Assembly: GCF_014621695.1 (NCBI RefSeq)
Contig: NZ_CP061281.1
Location: 6,262,001 to 6,326,000 of the forward strand
Source of the DNA: Streptomyces xanthii
GTDB taxonomy: Bacteria > Actinomycetota > Actinomycetes > Streptomycetales > Streptomycetaceae
DNA length: 64,000 nucleotides
Direction: 5' to 3'
The notes under the pieces are model-generated. The model was not told where the DNA came from and did not search any database. It was given only the letters and a program-made list of their open reading frames with translations. Below, one piece after another: positions 3,314-59,962 of the stretch. The position numbers were made by a program, and so were the translations under genes. Every line of letters starts with the position of its first letter. Within the stretch, counting starts at the first letter, position 1.

Positions 3314-3820
3314 CTACCGTCGGTCGCCGGACAGCAGCGCCGCGAAGCCGCCCCCGCGGGCCAGGACCTCCAGCTCGTCCAGGGCCTGCACCGCACGCCC
3401 CGCCGCACCGGGATCCCGCTCGCGCAAGCCACTCTCCGCGAACTCGTCCTCGTCCAACCGGATCACCTCCGATCCGTCCCCGGACACCCACAGATCCAGG
3501 TCGAGATCCTCCGAGACGAGCCCCTGCGCGTCCCGCACCACGGGACGGGTGACATCGCAGTACCAGCCCTTCAGGGTCCCGTCGCCCGTCCGCACCTCCT
3601 TCACGGAGAACCAGCGGTCCCGCCAGTAGTGCTCCGTGAACACGTCACCGGGCTCGAACCGCACGAACCCGAAGTCCCGTACCCCGGACCCCGCCCACGC
3701 GGCCCGCACCACGACCCGCGTCCCGTCGTCCCCGAGCAGCTGGGCCGGGTACGAGATCTTCTCGCGCCCGCCCTTCACCAGCCGGACCCGCACCGTCTCA
3801 GGCGCCGAGCTCCCGGACAT
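3314..3820 (-). CDS. DUF402 domain protein
   Basis: A 168-residue protein. The central region has the DUF402 pattern: HYWRDRWFSVKEV, then DGTLKGWYCDV and DLDLDLWV, then LDEDEF near residue 130. Related proteins include nucleoside-phosphate hydrolases that bind metal through the acidic residues, so a phosphatase role is possible but not shown. The ATG at 3820 has GGAGG 8 bp upstream and overlaps the end of the preceding GNAT gene by 23 bp, so the two are probably co-transcribed. Confidence 0.75.
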   Translation of the reverse strand: MSGSSAPETVRVRLVKGGREKISYPAQLLGDDGTRVVVRAAWAGSGVRDFGFVRFEPGDVFTEHYWRDRWFSVKEVRTGDGTLKGWYCDVTRPVVRDAQGLVSEDLDLDLWVSGDGSEVIRLDEDEFAESGLRERDPGAAGRAVQALDELEVLARGGGFAALLSGDRR

Positions 3821-4730
3821 GCCGTACCTCCGTCGTGTCCACCACATAACCGAACCACTTGTTGATCGCGAGCATCGGACCGTTCTCCGTGTCGTTGCCC
3901 GTGTACGCCACCCTGATCCCCGCCGCGCGGGCCCGGTGCAGCGAGTCGTTCTTGGCGAGCTTGGCCAGGCCCCGGCCCCGGAACGCGCGCAGCGTGCCCG
4001 TCATCCCCGTCGAGTAGCGGCCCTCGCCGTCCGTGCGAGCCACCGAGAACGCGGCCGGACGGCCGTCCACCAGCGCGATCGTGGTCAGCGCACGGTCGAC
4101 CAGCGGATGCTCCCAGGTGTCACGCAGCCACTGTCCGTACTCCATCTCCGCGGGGATGTCGCCCGGCTCGTCCGCGACCGTCGCCGCGTCCAGCTCGAAC
4201 ACCGGGCGCGGATCGTCCGCGAAGTCCGCCGCCGTCCGCAGCTCCACACCCGGCGGCGGAGCCTGCAACGGCGGCAGCGCGTCCGGCGTGAGGTCGAGGC
4301 GCAGGAAATGGGCGCTGCGGCTGGGCCGGTAGCCCCGGGCCGCCGCCCACGCGAGGTTCTCCGTACCGTCCAGTGCCCAGCAGAACACTCTCTGTGCACC
4401 GTGCCGGGCCAGATGCTCCTCGGCGGTCCGCAGCAGCAGCGTGCCCGCGCCCCGCCCGCGCCGCTCCGGATGCACGTACAGGTTGGCGAAGCCCTGCCCC
4501 GGCACCGGGCTGTCGTCCGCGATGCCCACCTGGGCCGTGCCGATCACCTCGCCGTCCTCCGCCACCGCGACCAGCTGGCGGTAGTGGGCGTCGGGATGCG
4601 CCCGTTCGGCGTCGAACGCGACGGACGCGGGCGTCGCCAGCATCGCCGGCACGCAAGCACGGCGGACCCGGGCGAAGCCCTCCGTGTCCGACGGACGGTC
4701 AGGGCTGGTGGCACGGACGATCACAGTCAT
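3798..4730 (-). CDS. Tandem GNAT acetyltransferase
   Basis: A 310-residue cytoplasmic protein with two GNAT folds. The N-terminal one carries the acetyl-CoA loop LYVHPERRGRGAGTLLL (about 93-109). The C-terminal one has TGTLRAFRGRGLAKLAK and TGNDTENGPMLAINKWFGY, typical of mycothiol synthase-like and Eis-like double GNATs. The start at 4730 is the first ATG matching the domain; an upstream extension would run into the divergent GntR promoter. Acceptor substrate is unknown. Confidence 0.8.
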   Translation of the reverse strand: MTVIVRATSPDRPSDTEGFARVRRACVPAMLATPASVAFDAERAHPDAHYRQLVAVAEDGEVIGTAQVGIADDSPVPGQGFANLYVHPERRGRGAGTLLLRTAEEHLARHGAQRVFCWALDGTENLAWAAARGYRPSRSAHFLRLDLTPDALPPLQAPPPGVELRTAADFADDPRPVFELDAATVADEPGDIPAEMEYGQWLRDTWEHPLVDRALTTIALVDGRPAAFSVARTDGEGRYSTGMTGTLRAFRGRGLAKLAKNDSLHRARAAGIRVAYTGNDTENGPMLAINKWFGYVVDTTEVRHVRELGA

Positions 4731-5178: not shown

Positions 5179-5216
5179 GGGGGCGGCGGGTTCGTCGGCG
5201 GGTACGGGTGCGTCGT

Positions 5217-5360
5217 GGCTGGTCGCGCAGTTCCCCGCGCCCCTGAGATGCACACCCTTCGGGTGGCATCTCCCCGATCAAGGCGCCGGGCGCCTTGAGC
5301 GGGGGAAGGCGCGGCGAAGCCGCATGCCTTCCAGGGGCGCGGGGAACTGCGCGACCAGCC
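5217..5360. repeat. Structured intergenic repeat, two head-to-head units
   Basis: The outer 28 bases (5217-5244 and 5333-5360) are perfect inverted repeats. Unit 1a (minus, 5217-5276) has stem GAGATGC/GCATCTC, inner stem CACCC/GGGTG, three-base loop and a one-base bulge. Unit 1b (plus, 5300-5360) has GGAAGGC/GCCTTCC with inner stem GCGGC/GCCGC, loop GAA and bulge AT. A third hairpin lies between them. It sits 3' of both convergent neighbours. It is related to copies at 20.2, 29.5 and 46.4 kb. Function unknown; a bidirectional terminator or protected 3' end is possible. Confidence 0.85.
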
Positions 5361-5400
5361 CCCGCCGGAGCCGCGGACGAACCGCTGAGTCCGGCTCGGG

Positions 5401-7705: not shown

Positions 7706-10700
7706 ATGAACCCGATATCAGCCACGCGGAGCAGGACTTCGCCCCGGGCCGGCCGAAGATCCGCCCGGCCCGCCACCGGCCGCACGGTGACCTGCCTGAT
7801 CGCCTCCGGCGTGCTCGGCGGCCTGCTCGCCGGGCCGGCCGCGTCCGCCGCGCCCGCCGAGCCCGTCAAGGACCCGGACCGCCGGGTGATCGTCACCCTC
7901 GCCGGGGCCGCGCCCGTGGCCGGAAAGGGCAGGCTCGACCGCGCCGACCGGGCCGACGTGCTCGGCGAGCGCGGGGAACTCGAGGCGGAGCAGGGCAGGT
8001 TCCTGGACGCGCTGGAGGAGGCGGGCGTCGAGGTCCGCGCGCCGCGCCGGCTGAACCTGCTGCTCAACGCGGTCGCCGTCACCGTGAAGGCCTCCCAGGT
8101 GGCGGATCTGAAGCGGCAGCCGGGCGTCACCGGAGTCGTCGAGGACAAGAAGCTGCGGATCCAGACCGACGACAGCGTGCCCACGATCGGCGCACCCCAG
8201 GTGTGGCAGCGCGAGGACGCGCACGGCACGAAGGTCCGCGGCGACGGCGTGACCGTCGCCGTGCTCGACAGCGGCATCGACTACACCCACCCCGACCTCG
8301 GCGGCGGATTCGGCGCCGGCCACAAGGTCGTCGGCGGCTACGACTTCGCCGACGACGACGCCGACCCGATGGACGACAACGGCCACGGCACCCACGTCGC
8401 CGGCATCATCGCCGGTGAGGCGGCGCAACCCGGCGGCGTGACCGGCGTCGCCCCGGGCGCCTCGCTCACGGCGTACAAGGTCATGGGCGCCGACGGCTAC
8501 GGCGAGACCTCCGACATCGTCGCGGGCCTGGAGGCGGCCGTCGACCCGGCGAACCCGCACCGCGCCGACGTCGTCAACATGAGCATCGGCGGCCCCGGCG
8601 ACGGGAGCGACCCGATCGGCCTCGCCGCCACGGCCGCCACGCGGGCCGGCGTCGTGGTCGTCGCCTCGGCCGGAAACGAGGGCCCGGGCCACAACACGGT
8701 CGGCTCCCCGGCCGCCGCCGACGGCGTCCTCGCGGTCGGCGCCTCCGTCAGCGGACTGCGCGTCCCGGGCGCCGCCTACAAGGGCGGCGGCAAGATCCAG
8801 ACCTACCGCGGCTACGTCTCCGCGAACCCGCCGGCGAAGCCCGTCACCCTCGAACTCGCCGACGTCGGCTACGGATCCCCGGAGGAGTGGGATGCCGCCG
8901 GCGACGTCCACGGCAAGGCGGTACGCGTCCAGTACCCGGTCTCCGAGGACGTCGGCGACGTCTCGGTCCAGGAGCTGGACCTGGCCCGCGAGGCCGAGAA
9001 GCGCGGCGCCGTCGCGATCCTCGGCGGCACCGCGAACAGCGGCCCCGTCCTGGCGGGGGAGCGGCGCGGCTTCGTCGAGGCCGCCCCGCGCGACGCGATC
9101 GACGCCTCGGGCGACTCCCTGCGCATGGACCACGTGATCGTGATGGGCGTCGACGACACCCAGTACGACGAACTCGGCCGCAGGCTCGCGGACGGCGAGG
9201 TCGAGATCACCGTCACCGGCGAGGACGCCACCGACCGCATGGCCGGCTTCTCCTCCCGCGGCCCCGACGCCGGCTGGGACCTCAAGCCCGACCTCGTCGC
9301 CCCCGGCTACGACATCCGCTCCACCGTGCCCAAGTCCCTGTACGCGCCGGGCCAGTACCGCATGTCCGGCACGTCGATGGCCGCCCCGCACGTCGCGGGC
9401 GCCGCCGCCCTGCTGCGCCAGCTGCACCCCGACCACGGCCCGGCGCGCGTCACCTCCGAACTCACCGGCTCCAGCAAGGAGCTGCCGGACTTCGACACGG
9501 CGACCGTCGGCGCCGGACGCCTCGACGTGGCCGCCGCCGCGGACGCGGCCGACGCCGGGATCACCACGTCGCCCGCGACCCTCTCGTACGGCCTCGCCGA
9601 CCTGAAGGACCGGCAGATCGGCGGAAGCCGCGCCCTGACCGTGCACAACGACGGCGACAGGCCCCGCACCGTACGCCTCACCGCGAGCGGCGACGCCCGT
9701 GTCAGCCCGCGCACCCTGACCGTCCCGGCGGGCGGCAGCGCCCGCGCGACCGTCACCGTGCGCGCCGAACGGCCCTCCCACGACACCGAGATCAGCGGCC
9801 AGGTCACCCTCGCCCCCGAGGGCGCCCCCGCGCTCCACGTGCCGTACCTGCTGTCCGTACGCGCCCTGTTCGCGCAGGCCGGGCCCGACCCCGGTGACGG
9901 GAAGTCGGGGGTCGCCGTGTTCGCCCCCGTCGGCCTCAAGAGCGCCCCGACCGTCACCGTGCGGCCGCCGCACGGCCGGTCCTTCACCGCCGGGACCAAG
10001 CACCGGGGCGGCAACGTGTACGAGGTCCAGCTCTCCGTCGAGGACGAGGGCGCGTACCGGATCTCGGCGCGCGCCGAGACCACCGACGGCAAGACGCTCA
10101 CCAGCAACAGCGACGGTTTCGAGGTCACCCCGAAGTCCTCGCGCGGCGAGAGGTGGCAGCCGGTCGGCCCGTCGAGCGCGGCCGGCGACCTCACGCTCGC
10201 GCCCGGCGCCCCCGGGCACGCGGTGCTCGACCGCGCCGACAGCACCGGCCTGTGGGCCACCGACGACAACGGCAGGACCTGGCGCCAGACCGCCCGGCTC
10301 CCCGTCACGGACGTCACCGGCGACGGACACCTCGTCATCGACCCCGAGGACGAGAACCGCTGGTGGTACGCCGTGAACAGCGCCTCCGGCTTCCCGCAGA
10401 CCGGGCAGATCCTGCGCACCGAGGACGCCGGCCGCACCTGGCGGCGCCTGGACACCCCCGGCGACCCCGTCTCCGGACTCCTCTCCGACGACCGGACCGG
10501 CACCCTGATCGCGTGGACCGGCGCGGGCCTCCTGCTCAGTCGCGACGGCGGCACGCACTGGGCCACGGCGCCGCTCGACGTCCCCGGCGACGTCTACGAC
10601 GTGAAGGCCGCGGGCGACAGCCTCTACTACGCCACCGGTCACGCCGTCTGGAAGCGTGACGGCCTCGCCTCGGGCACCCTCGGCGCACCGCGCAAGGTGT

Positions 10701-18100: not shown

Positions 18101-18107
18101 CGGCTGG

Positions 18108-20100: not shown

Positions 20101-20178
20101 GGGGCTATCCGTATCTGTCGCGGGCCCGTCTTGCAATGTCGGTCCCCTGGTGGCCTGGTCTTCGGCTCCCGCCGTCGT

Positions 20179-20237
20179 GGCTGGTCGCGCAGTTCCCCGC
20201 GCCCCTGAAGGCATGCGCTGCGCGCAGCCTTCCCCCT
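20179..20237 (-). repeat. Structured intergenic repeat, single unit 3' of hmgA
   Basis: Same 28-base arm as the 5.2-kb element (20179-20206), then stem GAAGGC/GCCTTC (20207-20212 with 20227-20232), inner stem TGCGC/GCGCA, loop and single-base bulge. Read on the minus strand it is in sense with hmgA and starts about 28 bases after its stop. No partner unit is present. Confidence 0.8.
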
Positions 20238-20264
20238 ATGGAGGTAGCGGACGCAGTCCGCACC

Positions 20265-21584
20265 TCAGCCGCGGCCGAAGTTCGACTCCAGCCCGGCCCA
20301 CACCTCGTCGTACCCGCGCTGCACATGCTCCGCCTCCGCAGCCTGCGCGGCGACCGTCAGCGGCCAGCGGGTCTCGAACATGAAGGCCAGGCCGTCGTCG
20401 ACCTTCTGCGGCTTCAGCTCGGCCGCGCTGGCGCGGTCGAAGGTCTCCCGGTCGGGGCCGTGCGCCGACATCATGTTGTGCAGCGAGCCGCCCCCGGGCA
20501 CGAAGCCCTCCGCCTTCGCGTCGTACGCGCCCTCGATGAGCCCCATGTACTCGCTCATCACGTTCCGGTGGAAGTACGGCGGACGGAACGTGTCCTCGCC
20601 CACCAGCCAGCGCGGGGCGAACACCACGAAGTCGACGCCCGCGAGCCCCGGGGTGTCCGACGGGGACGTCAGCACCGTGAAGATCGACGGGTCCGGGTGG
20701 TCGTAGGAGATCGTCCCGATGACGTTGAAGCGCCGCAGGTCGTACACGTACGGGACGTGGTTGCCGTGCCAGGCGACGACGTCGAGCGGGGAGTGGTCGT
20801 ACGTGGCCGTCCAGAGGTTGCCGCAGAACTTGTTGACCACCTCGACCGGGCCCGCGACGTCCTCGTATGCGGCGACCGGCGCCCTGAAGTCCCGTGCGTT
20901 CGCCAGTCCGTTGGCCCCGATCGGGCCGAGGTCGGGGAGCTGGAACGCCGCGCCGTAGTTCTCGCACACGTACCCGCGGGCGCTCTCGTCGAGCAGCTCC
21001 ACGCGGAAGCGGACCCCGCGCGGGATCAGCGCGACCTCGCCCGGACGCGCCGCGAGCAGGCCGAACTCCGTGCGCAGCAGCAGCCCGCCGCGCTCCGGGA
21101 CGATCAGCAGCTCGCCGTCGGCGTCGCTGAACACCCGGTCCATCGGCGCGTTCGCGTGGTAGAGGTGCACGGCCATGCCGGTGCGCTGCGTCGCGTCGCC
21201 GTTGCCGCCCAGCGTCCACAGGCCGGCCAGCCAGTCCGTGCCGGGGGCCGGCTCGGGCAGCGGGTTCCAGCGGCGGCGGTTGGGGTCGGGGACGGACTCG
21301 GTGAACGGGGCCGTGCGCACCGCCCCGTTGTCCGTCCGCGTGAACTCCGGGTGGGCCGCCGAGGGGCGGATCCGGTACAGCCACGAGCGGCGGTTGTGCG
21401 CGCGGGGCTCGGTGAAGGCCGTACCGCTCAACTGCTCCGCGTACAGGCCGAGCGGGGCGCGCTGCGGTGCGTTGCGCCCGACGGGCAGGGCTCCCGGCAC
21501 GGCCTCCGAGCCGTGCTCGTTGCCGAAGCCGGTGAGATACGCGAGCTCCTGGGCCGTCTTCCTCGCCTGCTCGATGCCGTTCAT
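20265..21584 (-). CDS. hmgA: Homogentisate 1,2-dioxygenase
   Basis: 439 residues, the usual length. The enzyme opens the ring of homogentisate to maleylacetoacetate in tyrosine and phenylalanine catabolism, in the cytoplasm, using Fe(II). The N-terminal [18 protein letters not shown] block is diagnostic. The iron ligands lie in [12 protein letters not shown] (His and Glu) and [12 protein letters not shown] (His). GGGAG precedes the ATG. A perfect 9-bp palindrome sits 25 bp upstream of the start. Maleylacetoacetate isomerase and fumarylacetoacetase genes are not adjacent. Confidence 0.97.
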
Positions 21585-28207: not shown

Positions 28208-29488
28208 ATGAAGCACTCCGCAGGGCCCGGTCAGGGACGCGCGTGGCTGCTCCGCCTCGTCATCGCCTTCAGCTTCGCGCAGGCGGCGGTGTCGATGGCG
28301 CGGCCCGCCGTCTCCTACCGGGCCCTCGCCCTCGGCGCCGACGAACGCGCCGTCGGCGTCATCGCCGGTGTCTACGCCCTGCTCCCGCTGTTCGCCGCCG
28401 TCCCGCTCGGCCGGCGCACCGACCACGGGCGCTGCGCCCCGCTGCTGCCCTTCGGCGTCGCGCTCATCGCGGGCGGCTGCGCCCTCAGCGGCACCGCCGG
28501 CTCCCTGGTCCGGATGGCCGCCTGGAGCGGCGTCATGGGGCTCGGTCACCTCTGCTTCGTGATCGGCGCCCAGTCGATCGTGGCCCGGCAGTCCTCGCCC
28601 GAGGACCAGGACCGCAACTTCGGCCACTTCACCATCGGCGCCTCCCTCGGCCAGCTCATCGGCCCCATGGCGGCCGGTGCGCTCATCGGCGGGCCCGACA
28701 TGGCCGGCACCAGCGCCCTCGCCCTGCTGGTCTCGGCCGGCGTCTGCGCCGTCTCCCTCACCTCCCTGTGGCGCATCGAGTTCCGTACCGCCGCCGGGCG
28801 TGCGGGCCGGGACGAGCGCGGCACCGCCCGGGTGCCGGTCCACCGCATCCTGCGCACGCGCGGGGTCCCGGGCGGCATCTTCATCAGCCTCGCCGTCCTG
28901 TCGGCCACCGACATCCTCACCGCGTACCTGCCCGTCGTCGGCGAGCACCGCGGCATCGCCCCGTCCGTCGTCGGCGTCCTGCTGAGCCTGCGCGCGGGCG
29001 CGACCATCGCCTGCCGCCTCGTCATGACCCCGCTCATCGACTGGCTCGGCCGGGCCGTCCTCATCGCCTCCACGTGCGGGCTGGCCGCGCTGCTGTGCGC
29101 GGGGATCGCGCTTCCGGTGCCCGTCTGGGCGCTCGCCGTGATGCTGGTCCTGCTGGGCTTCTGCCTCGGTGTCGGCCAGCCCCTGTCGATGACGACCGTC
29201 GTCCAGGCGGCCCCGCCCGAGGCGCGCTCCACGGCGCTCGCGCTCCGCCTGACCGGGAACCGGCTCGGGCAGGTCGCGGCGCCGGCCTCCGCGGGGCTCG
29301 TCGCGGGGGTGGCCGGGACGGCGGCGCCCTTCGTGATGCTGGGCGGGCTTCTGCTCATCGCCTCCGGCCTGGGGGTGCGGGGTGCGCGGCCGCGTCTGCC
29401 GCGTTCGGTCGCGGGGCGGGTGCGGGTCCGTCGTGGCCGGTCGCGCCCCGCGGAGGATCCGCACATCGACACAGGCCCGCGCCCCTGA
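28208..29488 (+). CDS. MFS transporter
   Basis: 426 residues, 12 predicted helices, with the MFS loop 2-3 signature LGRRTDHGRCAPL near residue 67. It starts 4 bp after the CitMHS stop, so the two are one operon and may handle related carboxylates. The C-terminal tail is long, basic and hydrophilic, and its last residues (DTGPRP) and stop codon are provided by the intergenic repeat fragment, suggesting the original C-terminus was altered when that element arrived. Substrate unknown. Confidence 0.85.
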   Translation: MKHSAGPGQGRAWLLRLVIAFSFAQAAVSMARPAVSYRALALGADERAVGVIAGVYALLPLFAAVPLGRRTDHGRCAPLLPFGVALIAGGCALSGTAGSLVRMAAWSGVMGLGHLCFVIGAQSIVARQSSPEDQDRNFGHFTIGASLGQLIGPMAAGALIGGPDMAGTSALALLVSAGVCAVSLTSLWRIEFRTAAGRAGRDERGTARVPVHRILRTRGVPGGIFISLAVLSATDILTAYLPVVGEHRGIAPSVVGVLLSLRAGATIACRLVMTPLIDWLGRAVLIASTCGLAALLCAGIALPVPVWALAVMLVLLGFCLGVGQPLSMTTVVQAAPPEARSTALALRLTGNRLGQVAAPASAGLVAGVAGTAAPFVMLGGLLLIASGLGVRGARPRLPRSVAGRVRVRRGRSRPAEDPHIDTGPRP

Positions 29489-29570
29489 TGAGGCCGCGCC
29501 TCATCGGGGAAATGCGACCCGAAGGGTCTGCATTTCAGGGGCGCGGGGAACTGCGCGACCAGCCACGACG
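29476..29570 (+). repeat. Structured intergenic repeat overlapping the MFS stop codon
   Basis: Full unit at 29505-29570: stem GAAATGC/GCATTTC, inner stem GACCC/GGGTC, loop GAA, bulge T, then the conserved GC-rich tail ending ACCAGCCACGACG. A truncated opposite arm (CGCGCCCCT, 29478-29486) runs into the last MFS codons, followed by hairpin GATGAGG/CCTCATC. It is in sense with the upstream operon. Confidence 0.8.
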
Positions 29571-46290: not shown

Positions 46291-46346
46291 GGTGGGGTGG
46301 CTCCTTTGTTCGTGGGTGGTGGACGGTGCGTGGGCGAGTGCGGGGG

Positions 46347-46454
46347 CAGCGGCTTCGCCGCGCCTTCCCTCGATGACAGGCGCCCGGCACCTTGATCGGG
46401 GAAATGCGGCGCGCAGCGCCTGCATTTCAGGGGCGCGGGGAACTGCGCGAGAAG
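46347..46454. repeat. Structured intergenic repeat with decayed partner
   Basis: Full unit on plus strand 46398-46454: stem GAAATGC/GCATTTC, inner stem GGCGC/GCGCC, loop GCA, bulge T and the conserved tail, whose end has mutated (GAGAAGCC instead of GACCAGCC). A decayed unit on the minus strand (46342-46368) keeps inner stem GCGGC/GCCGC, loop and bulge but has lost the tail. The pair has the same head-to-head layout as the 5.2-kb copy. Confidence 0.75.
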
Positions 46455-46484: not shown

Positions 46485-47198
46485 TCAGTCCAGCGCGGGG
46501 AGGGCGAGTTCGGCGCCGAGGACCCGGACGCCGACGGGCGTGAGCCGAACCGCCCGCCCCGAACCAATGCGCTCGGCCCAGCCGGATTCCAGCACGTGAG
46601 AGCAGAGCGCCGCCCCCGCCGCCCCCGCGAGATGAGGCCGCCGCTCGGTCCAGTCCAGACACCCCCGTACGAGCGGCCGCCGCCCACCCCCCGCCCCGAG
46701 CGCGATGCCCAGCGACCGGAACCACCCGAACCCCGCCTCCGTCAGCGAGAACCCGGAGTCGACCCGCAGCAGCCCCCGCCCGGCCATCGCCTCGGTCACC
46801 GACACCCCGAGCCGCCCCGCGAGATGGTCGTAACAGGTCCGCCCGCGCGCCAGCGCGTCCCGCACGGAAGCGGCCCGCAGGGACCGGGACCGCGGCTCGC
46901 CCCCGCCGGGCGCCGCGTAGGCGGCGAGGCCCTCGACGAGGTCGGCGACCCGCGCGTCGGCGAGCCGTACGTACCGGTGCCTGCCCTGCCGCTCCTCGGC
47001 GAGCAGCCCGCCCGCGACGAGCCGGCCGAGATGCTCGCTCGCGGTGGACGGCGCGACGCCCGCGTGCCGCGCGAGCTCACCCGCCGTCCAGGCCCGCCCG
47101 TCGAGCAGCGCGAGCAGGCACGAGGCCCGCGTCTCGTCGGCGAACAGCGCGGCGAGCGCCGCGAGTCGGGGGGCGCCGGGTTCCTGGGAAGCAGCCAT
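46485..47198 (-). CDS. ArsR-family transcriptional regulator, extended
   Basis: 237 residues. The N-terminal 90 form an ArsR winged helix (ARHAGVAPSTASEHLGRLVA, wing EERQGRHRYVRLA). The C-terminal 130 residues are a second domain (CYDHLAGRLGVSVTEAM to RLTPVGVRVLG) that lacks obvious metal cysteines. This long architecture recurs in Streptomyces as a regulator next to transporters. The start at 47198 has a weak SD. It lies 43 bp after the TetR gene on the same strand and upstream of the EamA exporter. Confidence 0.82.
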   Translation of the reverse strand: MAASQEPGAPRLAALAALFADETRASCLLALLDGRAWTAGELARHAGVAPSTASEHLGRLVAGGLLAEERQGRHRYVRLADARVADLVEGLAAYAAPGGGEPRSRSLRAASVRDALARGRTCYDHLAGRLGVSVTEAMAGRGLLRVDSGFSLTEAGFGWFRSLGIALGAGGGRRPLVRGCLDWTERRPHLAGAAGAALCSHVLESGWAERIGSGRAVRLTPVGVRVLGAELALPALD

Positions 47199-55707: not shown

Positions 55708-58569
55708 ATGCGAGGACGCACCCCACGCACCACCCCGCGCAGGAGGGCCCGAGGCCCCCTGCGGAGACTTACGGCCGCCGCGGCGCTCGTGCTCACCGCG
55801 GGGCTGCTGTCCCCGCACGCGACGGCCGCCGCGGACGAACCCGCCCCCGCGGCCGACTACTGCGCGGGCCAGTGCGCGGACATCCTGCCGCCCGGGGCGA
55901 ACGGCAGCGCGACGCTCGTCGAGATCCTCGGCAACAAGCTGTTCGGAACCCAGCCCGCGCACGCCGACGATCAGCTCGGTCCCTACGACGCGCTGTCGTC
56001 CGGATATCCGTCGCTCACGGACGACACGCTCTCCCAGTTCTTCAACGACTCCTCCTTCGGGGTCCCGAATGGTCAGGTCGGTTCGGTCACCCGTCCCCGG
56101 GAGGACGTGACCATCACCCGTGACAAGAAGAACGGCGTACCCCACGTCAAAGGTTCCACGCGCTACGGAACCGAGTTCGGCGCCGGCTACGCCGCAGGTC
56201 AGGACCGCCTCTGGCTCATCGACCTGTTCCGCCACATCGGCCGCGGCGAGCTGACCTCCTTCGCCGGCGGCGCCCTCGCGAACCAGGGACTCGAGCAGGA
56301 GTTCTGGCCGCAGGCCCCCTACACCGAGGACGATCTCCAGAAGCAGGTCGACTGGATCAGGACGGAGGGCGGGGCACGCGGCGCCCAGGCCATGAAGGAC
56401 GCCCAGGCCTACATCGACGGGCTCAACGCCTACCGCGAGAAGGCCAAGAAGGGGCGCTACTTCCCTGGCGAGTACGTGCTCACCGGCAAGATCGACGCGA
56501 TCACCAACATCGGCGAGATCCAGCCGTTCAAGGTGACCGACATGATCGCCCTGGCCTCCGTGGTCGGCGGACTGTTCGGCAACGGCGGCGGGGGAGAGGT
56601 CGACGCGGCCCTCTCGCTGCTCGCCGCCCAGCAGAAGTACGGCGTCGAGAAGGGCACCGAGATCTGGGAGTCCTTCCGCGGGCGCGACGACCCGGAGACC
56701 GTCACCACCATCCACGACGGCACCCGCTTCCCCTACGGGGCCAAGCCCGCGAAGGCGCGCGGCCAGGCCCTGCCCGACGCCGGATCCGTCGACCGCGAAC
56801 CCCTCGTCCACGACCGCACCGGCTCGGCCGCCACCGCCGCGCGGTCCGGCGCCGTCACCCGTGACCCGGTGAGGGCGCCCGCCCGCCTCAAGCCCCTCCA
56901 GGGCATGTACGACGACGGCGTGCTCCCCGAGGACATGTTCCGCGACTCCGCCTCCAAGAAGGGCATGTCGAACGCCCTCCTCGTCTCCGGGAAACACACC
57001 GCGTCCGGCCACCCGGTCGCCGTGTTCGGCCCGCAGACCGGCTACTTCGCACCGCAGCTGCTGATGATGCAGGAGCTCCAGGGCCCCGGCATCAGCGCCC
57101 GCGGCGTCTCCTTCGCCGGCGTCGGCATGTACATCCAGTTGGGCCGCGGCCAGGACTACGCCTGGTCCGCGACCTCCGCGGGACAGGACATCACCGACAC
57201 CTACGCGGTGCCCCTGTGCGAGCCCGACGGATCGGCGCCCACCAAGGCCTCGGCCTCCTACCTCTACCGGGGGACCTGCACCCCGATGGAGAAGCTGGAG
57301 CGGAAGAACGCCTGGAAGCCGACCGTCGCCGACTCCACCGCCGCCGGCAGCTACCGGATGCAGGTCTTCCGCACCCGGTACGGCGTGGTCACGCACCGCG
57401 CCACCGTCGACGGCAAGCCCGTCGCCTACACCGCGCTGCGCTCCACCTACCGCCACGAGGCCGACTCGATCATCGGCTTCCAGATGCTGAACGACCCGTC
57501 CTACGTCAAGGACGCCGCCTCCTTCCAGAAGGCGGCCCAGCACATCAGCTACGCCTTCAACTGGTTCTACGCGGACTCCCGGGACATCGCGTACTACAAC
57601 AGCGGTGCCAACCCGGTGCGCGCCGAGAACGTCGACATGTCGCTGCCCGTGAAGGCGGAACAGGCCTACGAATGGCGGGACTTCGACCCGGCCGACAACA
57701 CGTCCGCCCACACCCCGCCCGCCCAGCACCCGCACTCGGTGAACCAGGACTACTACATCTCCTGGAACAACAAGCAGGCCAAGGGCTTCGGCGCCGCCAA
57801 CTTCAGCCTCGGCGCCGTGCACCGCGCCGACCTCCTCGACGGCCGGGTGAAGAAGCTCACCGCCGAGGGCGGCGTCACCCGCGCCTCCCTCACCCGGGCC
57901 ATGGAGGAGGCGGCCGTCACCGACCTGCGCGGGGAGCAGGTCCTGCCCGAACTCCTGAAGGTGCTGAGGAGCGGGCCGATCACCGACCCGGCGCTCTCCA
58001 AGGCCGTGCAGCAGCTGGAGGCCTGGCGCAAGGGCGGGGCGCAGCGCAACCAGGCCTCCGCAGGCTCGAAGGCGTACGCCCACCCGGACGCCGTCCGGAT
58101 CATGGACGCGTGGTGGCCGCTCCTCGTGAAGGCCGCGTTCGAGCCGGGGCTCGGCGGCGACCTCTACCAGGCGCTCACCGGTCAGCTCGCCGTCGACGAG
58201 GCACCGTCGGCCGGCCACGGGCCGACCGGCTCGCACGCCGGATCCGCGTTCCAGTACGGCTGGTGGGGCTACGTCGACAAGGACCTGCGCGCGGTCCTCG
58301 GCGAGCCCGTGCAGGGCGCGCTGGGCAAGAGGTACTGCGGCGCCGGCGACCTGTCGTCCTGCCGTGACGCGCTCCTCGCCTCACTCGCCGCGGCGGTCGC
58401 GAAGCCCGCGACCGAGGTCTATCCCGGGGACGACACCTGCAAGGCGGGGGACCAGTGGTGCGCGGACACGATCGTGCACCGCGCCGTCGGCGGGATCTCC
58501 CACCGCTCGATGCAGTGGCAGAACCGGCCCACGTACCAGCAGGTCGTCGAGTTCCCGGCGCACCGGTGA
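55708..58569 (+). CDS. Secreted penicillin-acylase family Ntn hydrolase
   Basis: 953 residues. The signal peptide (about 1-42, ATA) and alpha part are followed by the self-cleavage site KKGM/SNALLVSGKHT, where Ser421 becomes the beta-subunit nucleophile. The NPSYV-like region (MLNDPSYVKDAASF) and the C-terminal RSMQWQNRPTYQQVVEFP fit the acylase fold. Family members cleave amides of acyl-homoserine lactones, lipopeptides (aculeacin) or penicillins; the true substrate is unknown. GGGAGG is 8 bp before the ATG. Confidence 0.92.
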   Translation: MRGRTPRTTPRRRARGPLRRLTAAAALVLTAGLLSPHATAAADEPAPAADYCAGQCADILPPGANGSATLVEILGNKLFGTQPAHADDQLGPYDALSSGYPSLTDDTLSQFFNDSSFGVPNGQVGSVTRPREDVTITRDKKNGVPHVKGSTRYGTEFGAGYAAGQDRLWLIDLFRHIGRGELTSFAGGALANQGLEQEFWPQAPYTEDDLQKQVDWIRTEGGARGAQAMKDAQAYIDGLNAYREKAKKGRYFPGEYVLTGKIDAITNIGEIQPFKVTDMIALASVVGGLFGNGGGGEVDAALSLLAAQQKYGVEKGTEIWESFRGRDDPETVTTIHDGTRFPYGAKPAKARGQALPDAGSVDREPLVHDRTGSAATAARSGAVTRDPVRAPARLKPLQGMYDDGVLPEDMFRDSASKKGMSNALLVSGKHTASGHPVAVFGPQTGYFAPQLLMMQELQGPGISARGVSFAGVGMYIQLGRGQDYAWSATSAGQDITDTYAVPLCEPDGSAPTKASASYLYRGTCTPMEKLERKNAWKPTVADSTAAGSYRMQVFRTRYGVVTHRATVDGKPVAYTALRSTYRHEADSIIGFQMLNDPSYVKDAASFQKAAQHISYAFNWFYADSRDIAYYNSGANPVRAENVDMSLPVKAEQAYEWRDFDPADNTSAHTPPAQHPHSVNQDYYISWNNKQAKGFGAANFSLGAVHRADLLDGRVKKLTAEGGVTRASLTRAMEEAAVTDLRGEQVLPELLKVLRSGPITDPALSKAVQQLEAWRKGGAQRNQASAGSKAYAHPDAVRIMDAWWPLLVKAAFEPGLGGDLYQALTGQLAVDEAPSAGHGPTGSHAGSAFQYGWWGYVDKDLRAVLGEPVQGALGKRYCGAGDLSSCRDALLASLAAAVAKPATEVYPGDDTCKAGDQWCADTIVHRAVGGISHRSMQWQNRPTYQQVVEFPAHR

Positions 58570-58590
58570 GCTGAGCGGACCACACACGGA

Positions 58591-58616
58591 AGCGGCCGGG
58601 CGTCCGCCCGGCCGCT
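58591..58616. terminator. Hairpin between convergent acylase and MHS genes
   Basis: AGCGGCCGGGC pairs with GCCCGGCCGCT around a four-base loop, 22 bp after the acylase stop and 21 bp before the stop of the minus-strand transporter. Confidence 0.75.
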
Positions 58617-58636
58617 GTCCCGTTCCCGTGGCGTCC

Positions 58637-59962
58637 TCAGCCGAGTTCGCGCTCCCGGGTCTCCGGCAGCGCGAGCACGCACAGCAGCGAGATGACGGCC
58701 ATCGCGCTCACGTACCAGCCCACCGACGACGAGCCGAACGCGCTCTGCAGCCGCGTCGCCACCAGCGGCGCGACGGCGCCGCCGAGCACACCGCCCAGGT
58801 TGTACGCGAACGAGGCGCCCGAGTAGCGCACCCGGACCGAGAACAGCTCCGGCAGATAGGCGCCCATCGGGCCGTACACCACGCCCATGCAGAACAGGGC
58901 CCCGCCGAGGGCCAGCGCGATCAGGACCGGCTGCTCGGTGTCCATCAGCAGGAACAGCACCGGCCCCCACACCACCGCGAGGCCCGAGCCGGCGAGGACC
59001 GTGCGGCGCCGCCCGCCCGCGTCCGAGCGCGTCGCGGCGAGCCAGGTCCCGGCCGCGAGGAACAGACAGGCCACGAGCGACACGGCGAGCATCGTGCCGC
59101 GCGGCACGCCCAGCGTCTTCGTGCCGTAGGCGAGGCAGTAGGTGGTGGCGGTGTAGAAGAGGCCGTACGCGACGACCATGCCGCCCGCGCCGAGCAGGAT
59201 CTCCTTCGGGTGCCGCTTGAACACCTCCAGGGCCGGTGCCCTGCTGGCCTCCTGGTCCGCCATCACCTTGGCGAACACGGGCGTCTCGCTGATCTTCAGC
59301 CGCACGAACAGGCCGACGGCGACCAGGAGGAAGGACAGCAGGAACGGGATCCGCCAGCCCCAGGACCGGAACGCCTCGTCCGAGAGGGACTCGGACAGCA
59401 GCCAGAAGATGCCGGTCGCCGCGAAGAAGCCGACCGACGGGCCGAGTTGGGGGAATGCCGCGAACAGGCCGCGCCGCCCGCGCGGCGCGTGCTCCACGGC
59501 GAGCAGCGCCGCCCCGCCCCACTCGCCGCCGAGCCCGACGCCCTGGAGGAAGCGCAGCAGCACGAGCAGCAGCGGGGCCCAGACGCCGAGCGTGGAGTAG
59601 CCGGGCAGCAGGCCGACGCACGCCGTCGACAGGCCCATCAGCAGCAGCGAGGCGACGAGCACCGACTTGCGGCCGATCCGGTCGCCGAAGTGACCGAACA
59701 GCAGGGAGCCGATCGGGCGGGCGGCGAACGCGACGGCGTACGTCGAAAAGGACGCCAAAGTGGCGTTGAGGGAGGACAGGTTGGGGAAGAACGCCTCGTT
59801 CAGGACGAGCGCGGCGGCCGTTCCGTAGACGTAGAAGTCGTAGAACTCGATGGCCGTGCCGATGAAACTGGCGACCGCCACGCGCCGTAGGCGCTCCGGC
59901 TGAGGGGCCGCGGCTGTGTCGTCCTGGGCTGGGTCTTCCCTGGTGGGGTCGTCTTTGAGCAC
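58637..59962 (-). CDS. MFS transporter, MHS (metabolite:H+ symporter) type
   Basis: 441 residues; 12 helices with FIGTAIEFYDFYVYGTAAAL, the loop GDRIGRKSVLVAS, and RFLQGVGLGGEWGGAALLAVE, all typical MHS marks, paralogous to the symporter at 42.9 kb. GTG 59962 is preferred to a TTG at 59998 that lies in the upstream terminator. Near the start the inverted pair CTGCAC/GGTGCAG and TGCAGTATGCA hint at a GntR-type operator. Substrate unknown. Confidence 0.85.
   Translation of the reverse strand: MLKDDPTREDPAQDDTAAAPQPERLRRVAVASFIGTAIEFYDFYVYGTAAALVLNEAFFPNLSSLNATLASFSTYAVAFAARPIGSLLFGHFGDRIGRKSVLVASLLLMGLSTACVGLLPGYSTLGVWAPLLLVLLRFLQGVGLGGEWGGAALLAVEHAPRGRRGLFAAFPQLGPSVGFFAATGIFWLLSESLSDEAFRSWGWRIPFLLSFLLVAVGLFVRLKISETPVFAKVMADQEASRAPALEVFKRHPKEILLGAGGMVVAYGLFYTATTYCLAYGTKTLGVPRGTMLAVSLVACLFLAAGTWLAATRSDAGGRRRTVLAGSGLAVVWGPVLFLLMDTEQPVLIALALGGALFCMGVVYGPMGAYLPELFSVRVRYSGASFAYNLGGVLGGAVAPLVATRLQSAFGSSSVGWYVSAMAVISLLCVLALPETRERELG

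Follow-up and report, generated by a model that had tools for sequence, protein, structure and literature searches.

The sequence-only reading of the Streptomyces DNA studied here knew of no named family that fits its scattered hairpin units; a related kind of repeat is known, however, the REPs and REPINs. REPINs are defined by doublet anatomy, spacing, compensatory changes in spacer hairpins and doublets that are better kept than singlets, the last being a prediction of REPIN theory (PMC3116915). The REPINs of Pseudomonas fluorescens SBW25 resemble our repeat in their near-invariant inverted ends, tandem clusters, better-kept doublets and a variable hairpin-forming spacer with compensatory changes, and their preferred spacings are 71 and 110 bp, compared with peaks of tail spacing at 69–71, 84, 95–98 and 108–109 bp in the S. 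xanthii genome (PMC3116915). In contrast to SBW25, the repeat described here has no RAYT and no GTAG, carries C-GNA-G loops and a long conserved tail, belongs to a different phylum and in other species also forms tail-to-tail pairs (PMC3116915). The REP/BIME elements of E. coli likewise combine unit types as mosaics, have features specific to one strand and form a hairpin that a mismatch or unpaired bases interrupt, and TnpAREP recognises REP hairpins as folded single DNA strands via loops, bulges and GTAG (PMC8266576). While GTAG is important there, we found it at the foot of 0 of 80 hairpins; the TnpAREP model is unmatched and the unit has a long conserved 3' tail (PMC8266576).

CGTC REPs are families without a dedicated transposase which, like our repeat, are placed at gene 3' ends, mostly in convergent and unidirectional gaps, and form dimers, with most convergent copies ≤20 bp from the ORF 3' ends (PMC3733652). 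They are listed for Proteobacteria, Chlorobi, Bacteroidetes, Spirochaetes and Thermotogae, and the words Streptomyces and actinobacteria are absent from the available part of that text (PMC3733652). CGTC stands at the foot of only 2 of our 80 hairpins, which does not agree with a CGTC REP. Intrinsic terminators share the GC-rich hairpin shortly after the stop codon, but the repeat differs from them in having no U-tract, a long conserved tail, doublets and arrays. More than 100 short intergenic palindromic copies, the number expected of REPs and REPINs, are present (385 tails; 87 of 94 sampled clusters intergenic), and in the S. xanthii genome copies form inverted pairs at favoured distances with conserved ends and show the compensatory hairpins and better-kept doublets of such elements. 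The repeat resembles REPs in how it would operate, but because it gave negative results for the GTAG and CGTC tags and for a RAYT, we file it as REPIN-like and not under a named REP family. Among the matches listed in a literature search, none describes the repeat in Streptomyces, and none of the sequence-string matches listed was on Streptomyces by title.

Units in the window and copies across genomes

The window, i.e. the whole 64-kb stretch of S. xanthii DNA that was analysed, contains the exact tail AGGGGCGCGGGGAACTGCG 5 times, compared with a mean of 0.25 in 100 shuffles (up to 3 mismatches). Tail scanning and folding bore out the six units at four loci that had been read from the sequence, five of them intact and one decayed (Table 1), and all 5 intact units reproduced the described outer stem, 5-bp inner stem, GAA or GCA loop and T or AT bulge. 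Their z-scores range from -2.3 to -3.9 in RNA folding and from -2.9 to -4.2 in DNA folding, with 0 to 4 per 200 shuffles folding as well as an intact unit in the RNA or DNA model. The 5' hexamer CGGGGA is less constant than had been claimed, as 20179–20237 has AGGGGGA and 5300–5360 has CGGGGGA. By our gene calls each of the four loci is at most some 60 bp away from a stop codon, as expected from the proposed position directly 3' of genes, but the unit at 46398–46454 is antisense to its gene. Rfam gave 0 matches above the gathering cut-off in the window, and raising the E-value limit to 5 added nothing but sub-threshold matches to microRNA precursors and riboswitches.

Folding of the head-to-head doublet at 5217–5360 added a feature that the earlier reading had not mentioned: the whole doublet folds as one cloverleaf, in which the two tails pair as a 28-bp stem and the arms are formed by hairpin, linker and hairpin (RNA z -13.8, DNA z -15.4).

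Table 1. Repeat units and adjoining genes in the window. Gene coordinates are calls of a codon-usage script (87% of bases covered) made with no use of annotation.
Feature	Position	Strand	Remarks
Whole doublet	5217-5360		in convergent gap 5179-5400; three hairpin arms closed by a 28-bp stem of the two tails
Unit 1 (hairpin + tail)	5217-5276	-	hairpin 5245-5272, tail core 5226-5244
Palindromic linker hairpin TCAAGGCGC-CGG-GCGCCTTGA	5278-5298		middle arm of the cloverleaf (folding of 5217-5360)
Unit 2 (hairpin + tail), head-to-head with unit 1	5300-5360	+	hairpin 5304-5332, tail core 5333-5351
Single unit	20179-20237	-	tail core 20188-20206
Gene next to unit 20179-20237, homogentisate 1,2-dioxygenase	20265-21584	-	unit 3', sense
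Gene next to unit 29505-29570, MFS transporter	28208-29488	+	unit 3', sense
Single unit	29505-29570	+	tail core 29537-29555
Decayed partner of unit 46398-46454	about 46342-46369	-	type B hairpin remnant, a broken GCGGC-GAA-GCCGC hairpin; tail missing
Intact unit of half-decayed doublet	46398-46454	+	tail core 46429-46447
Gene preceding unit 46398-46454, HTH_20 match	46485-47198	-	unit 3', antisense

In the whole genome of 8.35 Mb the exact 18-base tail GGGGCGCGGGGAACTGCG occurs 385 times, 184 and 201 times on the two strands, and the reversed tail, used as a control, has 0 copies. Among 150 Streptomyces genomes (S. xanthii included) 84 are positive, with 1 to 751 copies each, and a second tail pattern, extended by one base and with another base left free, was likewise found in 84 of the 150. 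As 64 genomes have no copy with either pattern, tail variants do not account for the zero-copy genomes, which make up about two in five of the sampled Streptomyces while other congeners hold hundreds of copies; the repeat is therefore dispensable. At the level of the order 176 of 293 genomes were positive, with a maximum of 996 copies in G387. All 5 sampled genomes from other genera of the Streptomycetaceae carry the tail (24 to 486 copies), and 0 of 15 sampled genomes from two other families of the order do. Hosts among the contig matches listed are Streptomyces, Kitasatospora, Streptacidiphilus and Actinacidiphila.

The S. xanthii genome gave 0 matches to the Y1 transposase (PF01797). A Y1 gene is present in 47 of the 150 Streptomyces genomes, and 10 of the 17 genomes with at least 100 copies are without one, among them G059, G032, G108 and S. 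xanthii itself. Copies are somewhat more frequently present where a Y1 gene occurs (33 of 47 genomes) than where it is missing (51 of 103, p = 0.02); genome size may explain this mild association, given which the repeat could also be a remnant of a RAYT/Y1 past. The RAYT model NF047646 stayed below its cut-off in all of 12 high-copy and 12 zero-copy genomes, the one match, in G127, being sub-threshold, and together with the lack of PF01797 in S. xanthii this gives no support to a RAYT as the present driver. Plasmids and phages were rejected as a vehicle, with part of the doublet found in 3 plasmid records and part of a unit in 12 (looser limit). Phage records contained no match to the element.

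Tails, pairs and hairpins

Conservation of the tail is strong to about +34 and weak to about +52. At 42 places located by hairpin type A alone, the tail was exact in 34 cases and had one mismatch in 1. The hairpin is followed by GGGGCGCG, which begins with GGGGCG, and by no U-tract; this sequence is set by the construction of the search, and most hairpin-anchored places agree with it. Between neighbouring tails at distances of up to 250 bp in the S. xanthii sample (n = 40) the order was '-+' in 35 cases, '--' in 3, '++' in 2 and '+-' in 0. The corresponding numbers (again '-+', '--', '++' and '+-') are 5, 8, 10 and 0 in G059, 1, 1, 1 and 0 in G335 and 6, 1, 4 and 0 at places L306-L325, as compared with 17, 7, 26 and 11 at the other-species loci L021-L140, where units were picked by the exact tail and scanned with at most 1 mismatch, so that their tail invariance is by construction. 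Head-to-head order thus appears to be a trait of the S. xanthii lineage and some others rather than of the whole family. Tail-to-tail neighbours 51–111 bp apart were seen at L024, L031, L045, L058, L075, L084, L111, L123, L126 (twice) and L128.

Paired units are better preserved than others. A C-GNA-G hairpin is present in 66 of 70 paired units and in 39 of the other 60 (p = 3e-5), and tail identity from +18 to +34 is 0.749 in doublets versus 0.690 in singlets. In total 60 of the 130 sampled units stand outside any '-+' pair.

Longer arrangements were observed as well. On contig C13 of G059, tail arrays with a period of about 57–60 bp flank a central hairpin pair at 130310-131038, 118340-118761 and 58232-58969 (L295, L294 and L291); the first consists of three '-' units, two central hairpins and eight '+' units, and at 58450-58950 the array centre itself is made up of repeats resembling GAGGCGCGCCACCGCGGCTTC. 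Judged by eye, the parts between the repeats are variants of one tail extension and no unique spacers, which rules out a CRISPR array. At L316 (G387 C8:290550-290950) a GGGGCACGGGGAACGGCGCAGTCTTCGGTTTCTG-like mini-tandem of 34 bp merges into a normal tail. A second core, in which a GCGRCTCCGYCGC hairpin replaces AACTG, has 20 copies in the 2.46-Mb sample of S. xanthii; this alternative long core, GGGGCGCGGGG-CTGTRTCSATCA-GCGRCTCCGYCGC-GGGGCGCGACC, e.g. at L010 (+ near 8391) and L158 (+ near 4520), sometimes directly precedes a normal unit.

Hairpins were called when their score reached the 95th percentile of the scores of 1210 random 40-mers. By this threshold 83 of 130 S. xanthii units have an upstream hairpin, 80 of these ≤3 nt from the tail, compared with 13 of 37 units in G059, 0 of 9 in G335 and 23 of 193 tail-chosen units in other species. 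Hence, of the fixed combination of hairpin and tail that had been proposed, the tail is constant throughout the family but the hairpin is not, and most tails outside S. xanthii and its relatives are without a strong hairpin. The 42 distinct tail-abutting hairpins of S. xanthii comprise 493 Watson-Crick, 17 G.T and 6 A.C cells on the unit strand (G.T versus A.C, p = 0.035). GNA loops occur in 40 of these 42 hairpins and are closed by C-G, giving C-GNA-G, in 39; the C-GNA-G loop was also found in 10 of 10 hairpins of G059 and 8 of 15 of other species. With identical finder and threshold it appeared in 13 of 457 random 40-mers and 5 of 341 tail-less tandem gaps, the matched controls that we prefer to a perfect-stem control (1 of 149). 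RNA counterparts of GNA-loop DNA mini-hairpins are much weaker. A GNA or GNNA loop on at least 2 G-C pairs forms an extraordinarily stable DNA mini-hairpin, with GCGAAGC melting at 78 C (PMC4686876). Accordingly, the C-GNA-G loops speak for folded DNA no less than for RNA.

Covariation was analysed in an ungapped alignment of 27 distinct hairpins (19 from S. xanthii, 5 from G059, 3 from other species), limited to those with a 5-bp inner stem and one 3' bulge and excluding other bulge patterns. Of 297 cells, which count sequences and not events, 97.6% are paired versus 72.8% after shuffling, double changes concern 10 of 11 pairs versus 6.6 in shuffles, and the covariation score is 0.652 versus 0.194; when the partner is slid out of register, pairing falls to 34–55% of cells. 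Pairing thus beats both the shuffled and the slid controls, and the folded form is constrained as the sequence-only reading held. Selection of the folded form need not mean RNA, as the C-GNA-G loops fit folded DNA. The same form of outer stem, bulge, inner stem and C-GNA-G loop was seen by eye with wholly different stems in G251, G387, G107 and G271, which argues for several independent origins. At L034 (about 3594-3629) a symmetrical hairpin of A-tract, stem and T-tract, AAAAAAGCAGGGGC-GAA-GCCCCCTGCTTTTTTT, lies just before the tail; it resembles a bidirectional intrinsic terminator and has the GAA loop of the repeat units.

Position relative to genes and possible nature of the repeat

Gene context was determined in the window together with 120 stretches of 20 kb each, in total 2.46 Mb of the 8.35 Mb. 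This sample contains 136 tails (≤2 mismatches) in 94 clusters, of which 45 lie between convergent, 38 between tandem and 4 between divergent genes, 6 inside called genes and 1 at an edge; matches with 2 mismatches account for 5 of the 6 in-gene clusters and 1 of the 45 convergent ones. For the 87 intergenic clusters, the observed 45/38/4 compare with 14.3/44.5/28.2 (convergent/tandem/divergent) expected from intergenic bases. In tandem gaps 29 of 38 elements are located in the gap half closer to the upstream stop codon, and single units are sense in 19 cases and antisense in 6 (p = 0.015). Sampled copies show no replication-strand bias (left 23+/26-, right 42+/39-, with the division assumed at 3.93 Mb), which rules out a replichore-oriented KOPS-like signal.

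We favour, with a probability of roughly 55%, a RAYT-less, REPIN-like mosaic repeat of the Streptomycetaceae at gene 3' ends, of which the folded single strand is recognised by a putative factor. What replicates in S. xanthii and in the two sampled relatives closest to it is most likely the doublet. As its ends are near-invariant tails rich in G and the hairpins lie inside, one strand would fold as a three-arm cloverleaf on a long tail stem, and the repeat would spread via this folded single DNA strand, stabilised by the C-GNA-G mini-hairpins, marked by an extrahelical base and recognised by a putative trans-acting enzyme other than RAYT. Recombination between identical tails may then shuffle the hairpin modules. 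Copies would survive mainly 3' of genes because insertion is harmless there; at such sites transcription probably extends into them, and as a by-product they may stabilise transcripts or bring them to an end. The fuller proposition, RAYT-independent mobile palindromes of single-strand DNA with up to about a thousand units, many of them cloverleaf doublets with C-GNA-G loops and extrahelical base, a predicted enzyme and hairpins swappable by homologous tail exchange, we put forward tentatively.

The position at gene 3' ends, the convergent bias and the very stable folds would also suit RNA 3'-end elements, i.e. bidirectional terminators or exonuclease barriers kept by selection and spread by duplication, in a genus with many overlapping convergent transcripts (PMC3765725) and with 3' ends that often have stems but few U's (PMC8269248). 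This explanation, which we consider possible but rather doubtful, is kept alive by the sense bias and the excess of G.T over A.C, both of which are compatible with folded DNA or RNA alike. It does not fit well with GGGGCG in place of a U-tract after the hairpin (by search construction), nor with the many Streptomyces that have no copy, and arrays of up to 8 tails as in G059 are unexpected for a terminator. The strand specificity of the C-GNA-G loop is our main reason for taking folded DNA rather than RNA to be the form under selection.

An ordinary MITE, with the tails as terminal inverted repeats of a DDE transposon moving as double-stranded DNA, would agree with the 28-bp inverted ends formed by the tails of the window doublet and with doublet sizes of about 150–220 bp. 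We regard it as unlikely, since nearly half of the sampled units are outside a '-+' pair, some arrays are head-to-tail, and strand-specific GNA loops and hairpin covariation are unexpected for it. Gyrase or IHF bind the BIMEs of E. coli, and the repeat might similarly be a chromosomal landmark bound by a putative protein and conserved for nucleoid organisation. The near-invariant tail at the places found by type A hairpins, the few plasmid matches and the missing phage matches speak for such a landmark, but with so many congeners lacking any copy and no strand pattern along the chromosome it appears more improbable still than the MITE.

The RAYT-less REPIN-like system that we favour would reside in a family of large, much-engineered genomes in which zero-copy and near-thousand-copy relatives can be compared. 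Two questions thereby become open to testing, namely how RAYT-less REPs are moved and whether selection acts on REP hairpins in the form of DNA or of RNA. Lying next to hundreds of genes, the copies are likely to be a hazard in recombination and in assembly, and they may also act as terminators.

Comparison of orthologous sites

Among the best matches listed for 392 genomes of the genus, G335 and G059 align through the gap 5179-5400. Outward tails are present there in S. xanthii, G059 and G335, but the modules between them differ: types A and B in S. xanthii, type C and GAGGC-TGCGC-GCA-GCGCA-T-GCCTC in G059, and a short GAAGGCC-GCA-GGCCTT hairpin with an extra unit in G335. Each of the three species has a unit at 20101-20264, with a different hairpin in G059 and, in G335, a hairpin related to that of S. 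xanthii and a variant tail. Drift of the hairpins by point compensation, as the sequence-only reading implied, is contradicted by both G059 sites compared, which have different modules between unchanged tails. Between the stop codons at 18101-18107 the gap is 7 bp in S. xanthii and 30 bp in G335, neither with a unit, while in G059 a unit occupies all 57 bases between the two stop codons, most simply explained as a gain in G059. The fixed sites compared thus indicate that tails are retained while hairpins are swapped, and that units are gained or lost.

In 13 orthologous gaps, obtained from 30 loci, G027 has variant tails and none were seen by eye in the others, the flanks being too diverged for a footprint. 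In four orthologues of the gap 5179-5400 (L253, L255, L256 and L265) the element is replaced by an extra minus-strand ORF of about 700–800 bp, which by eye we take to encode a DUF72-like protein.
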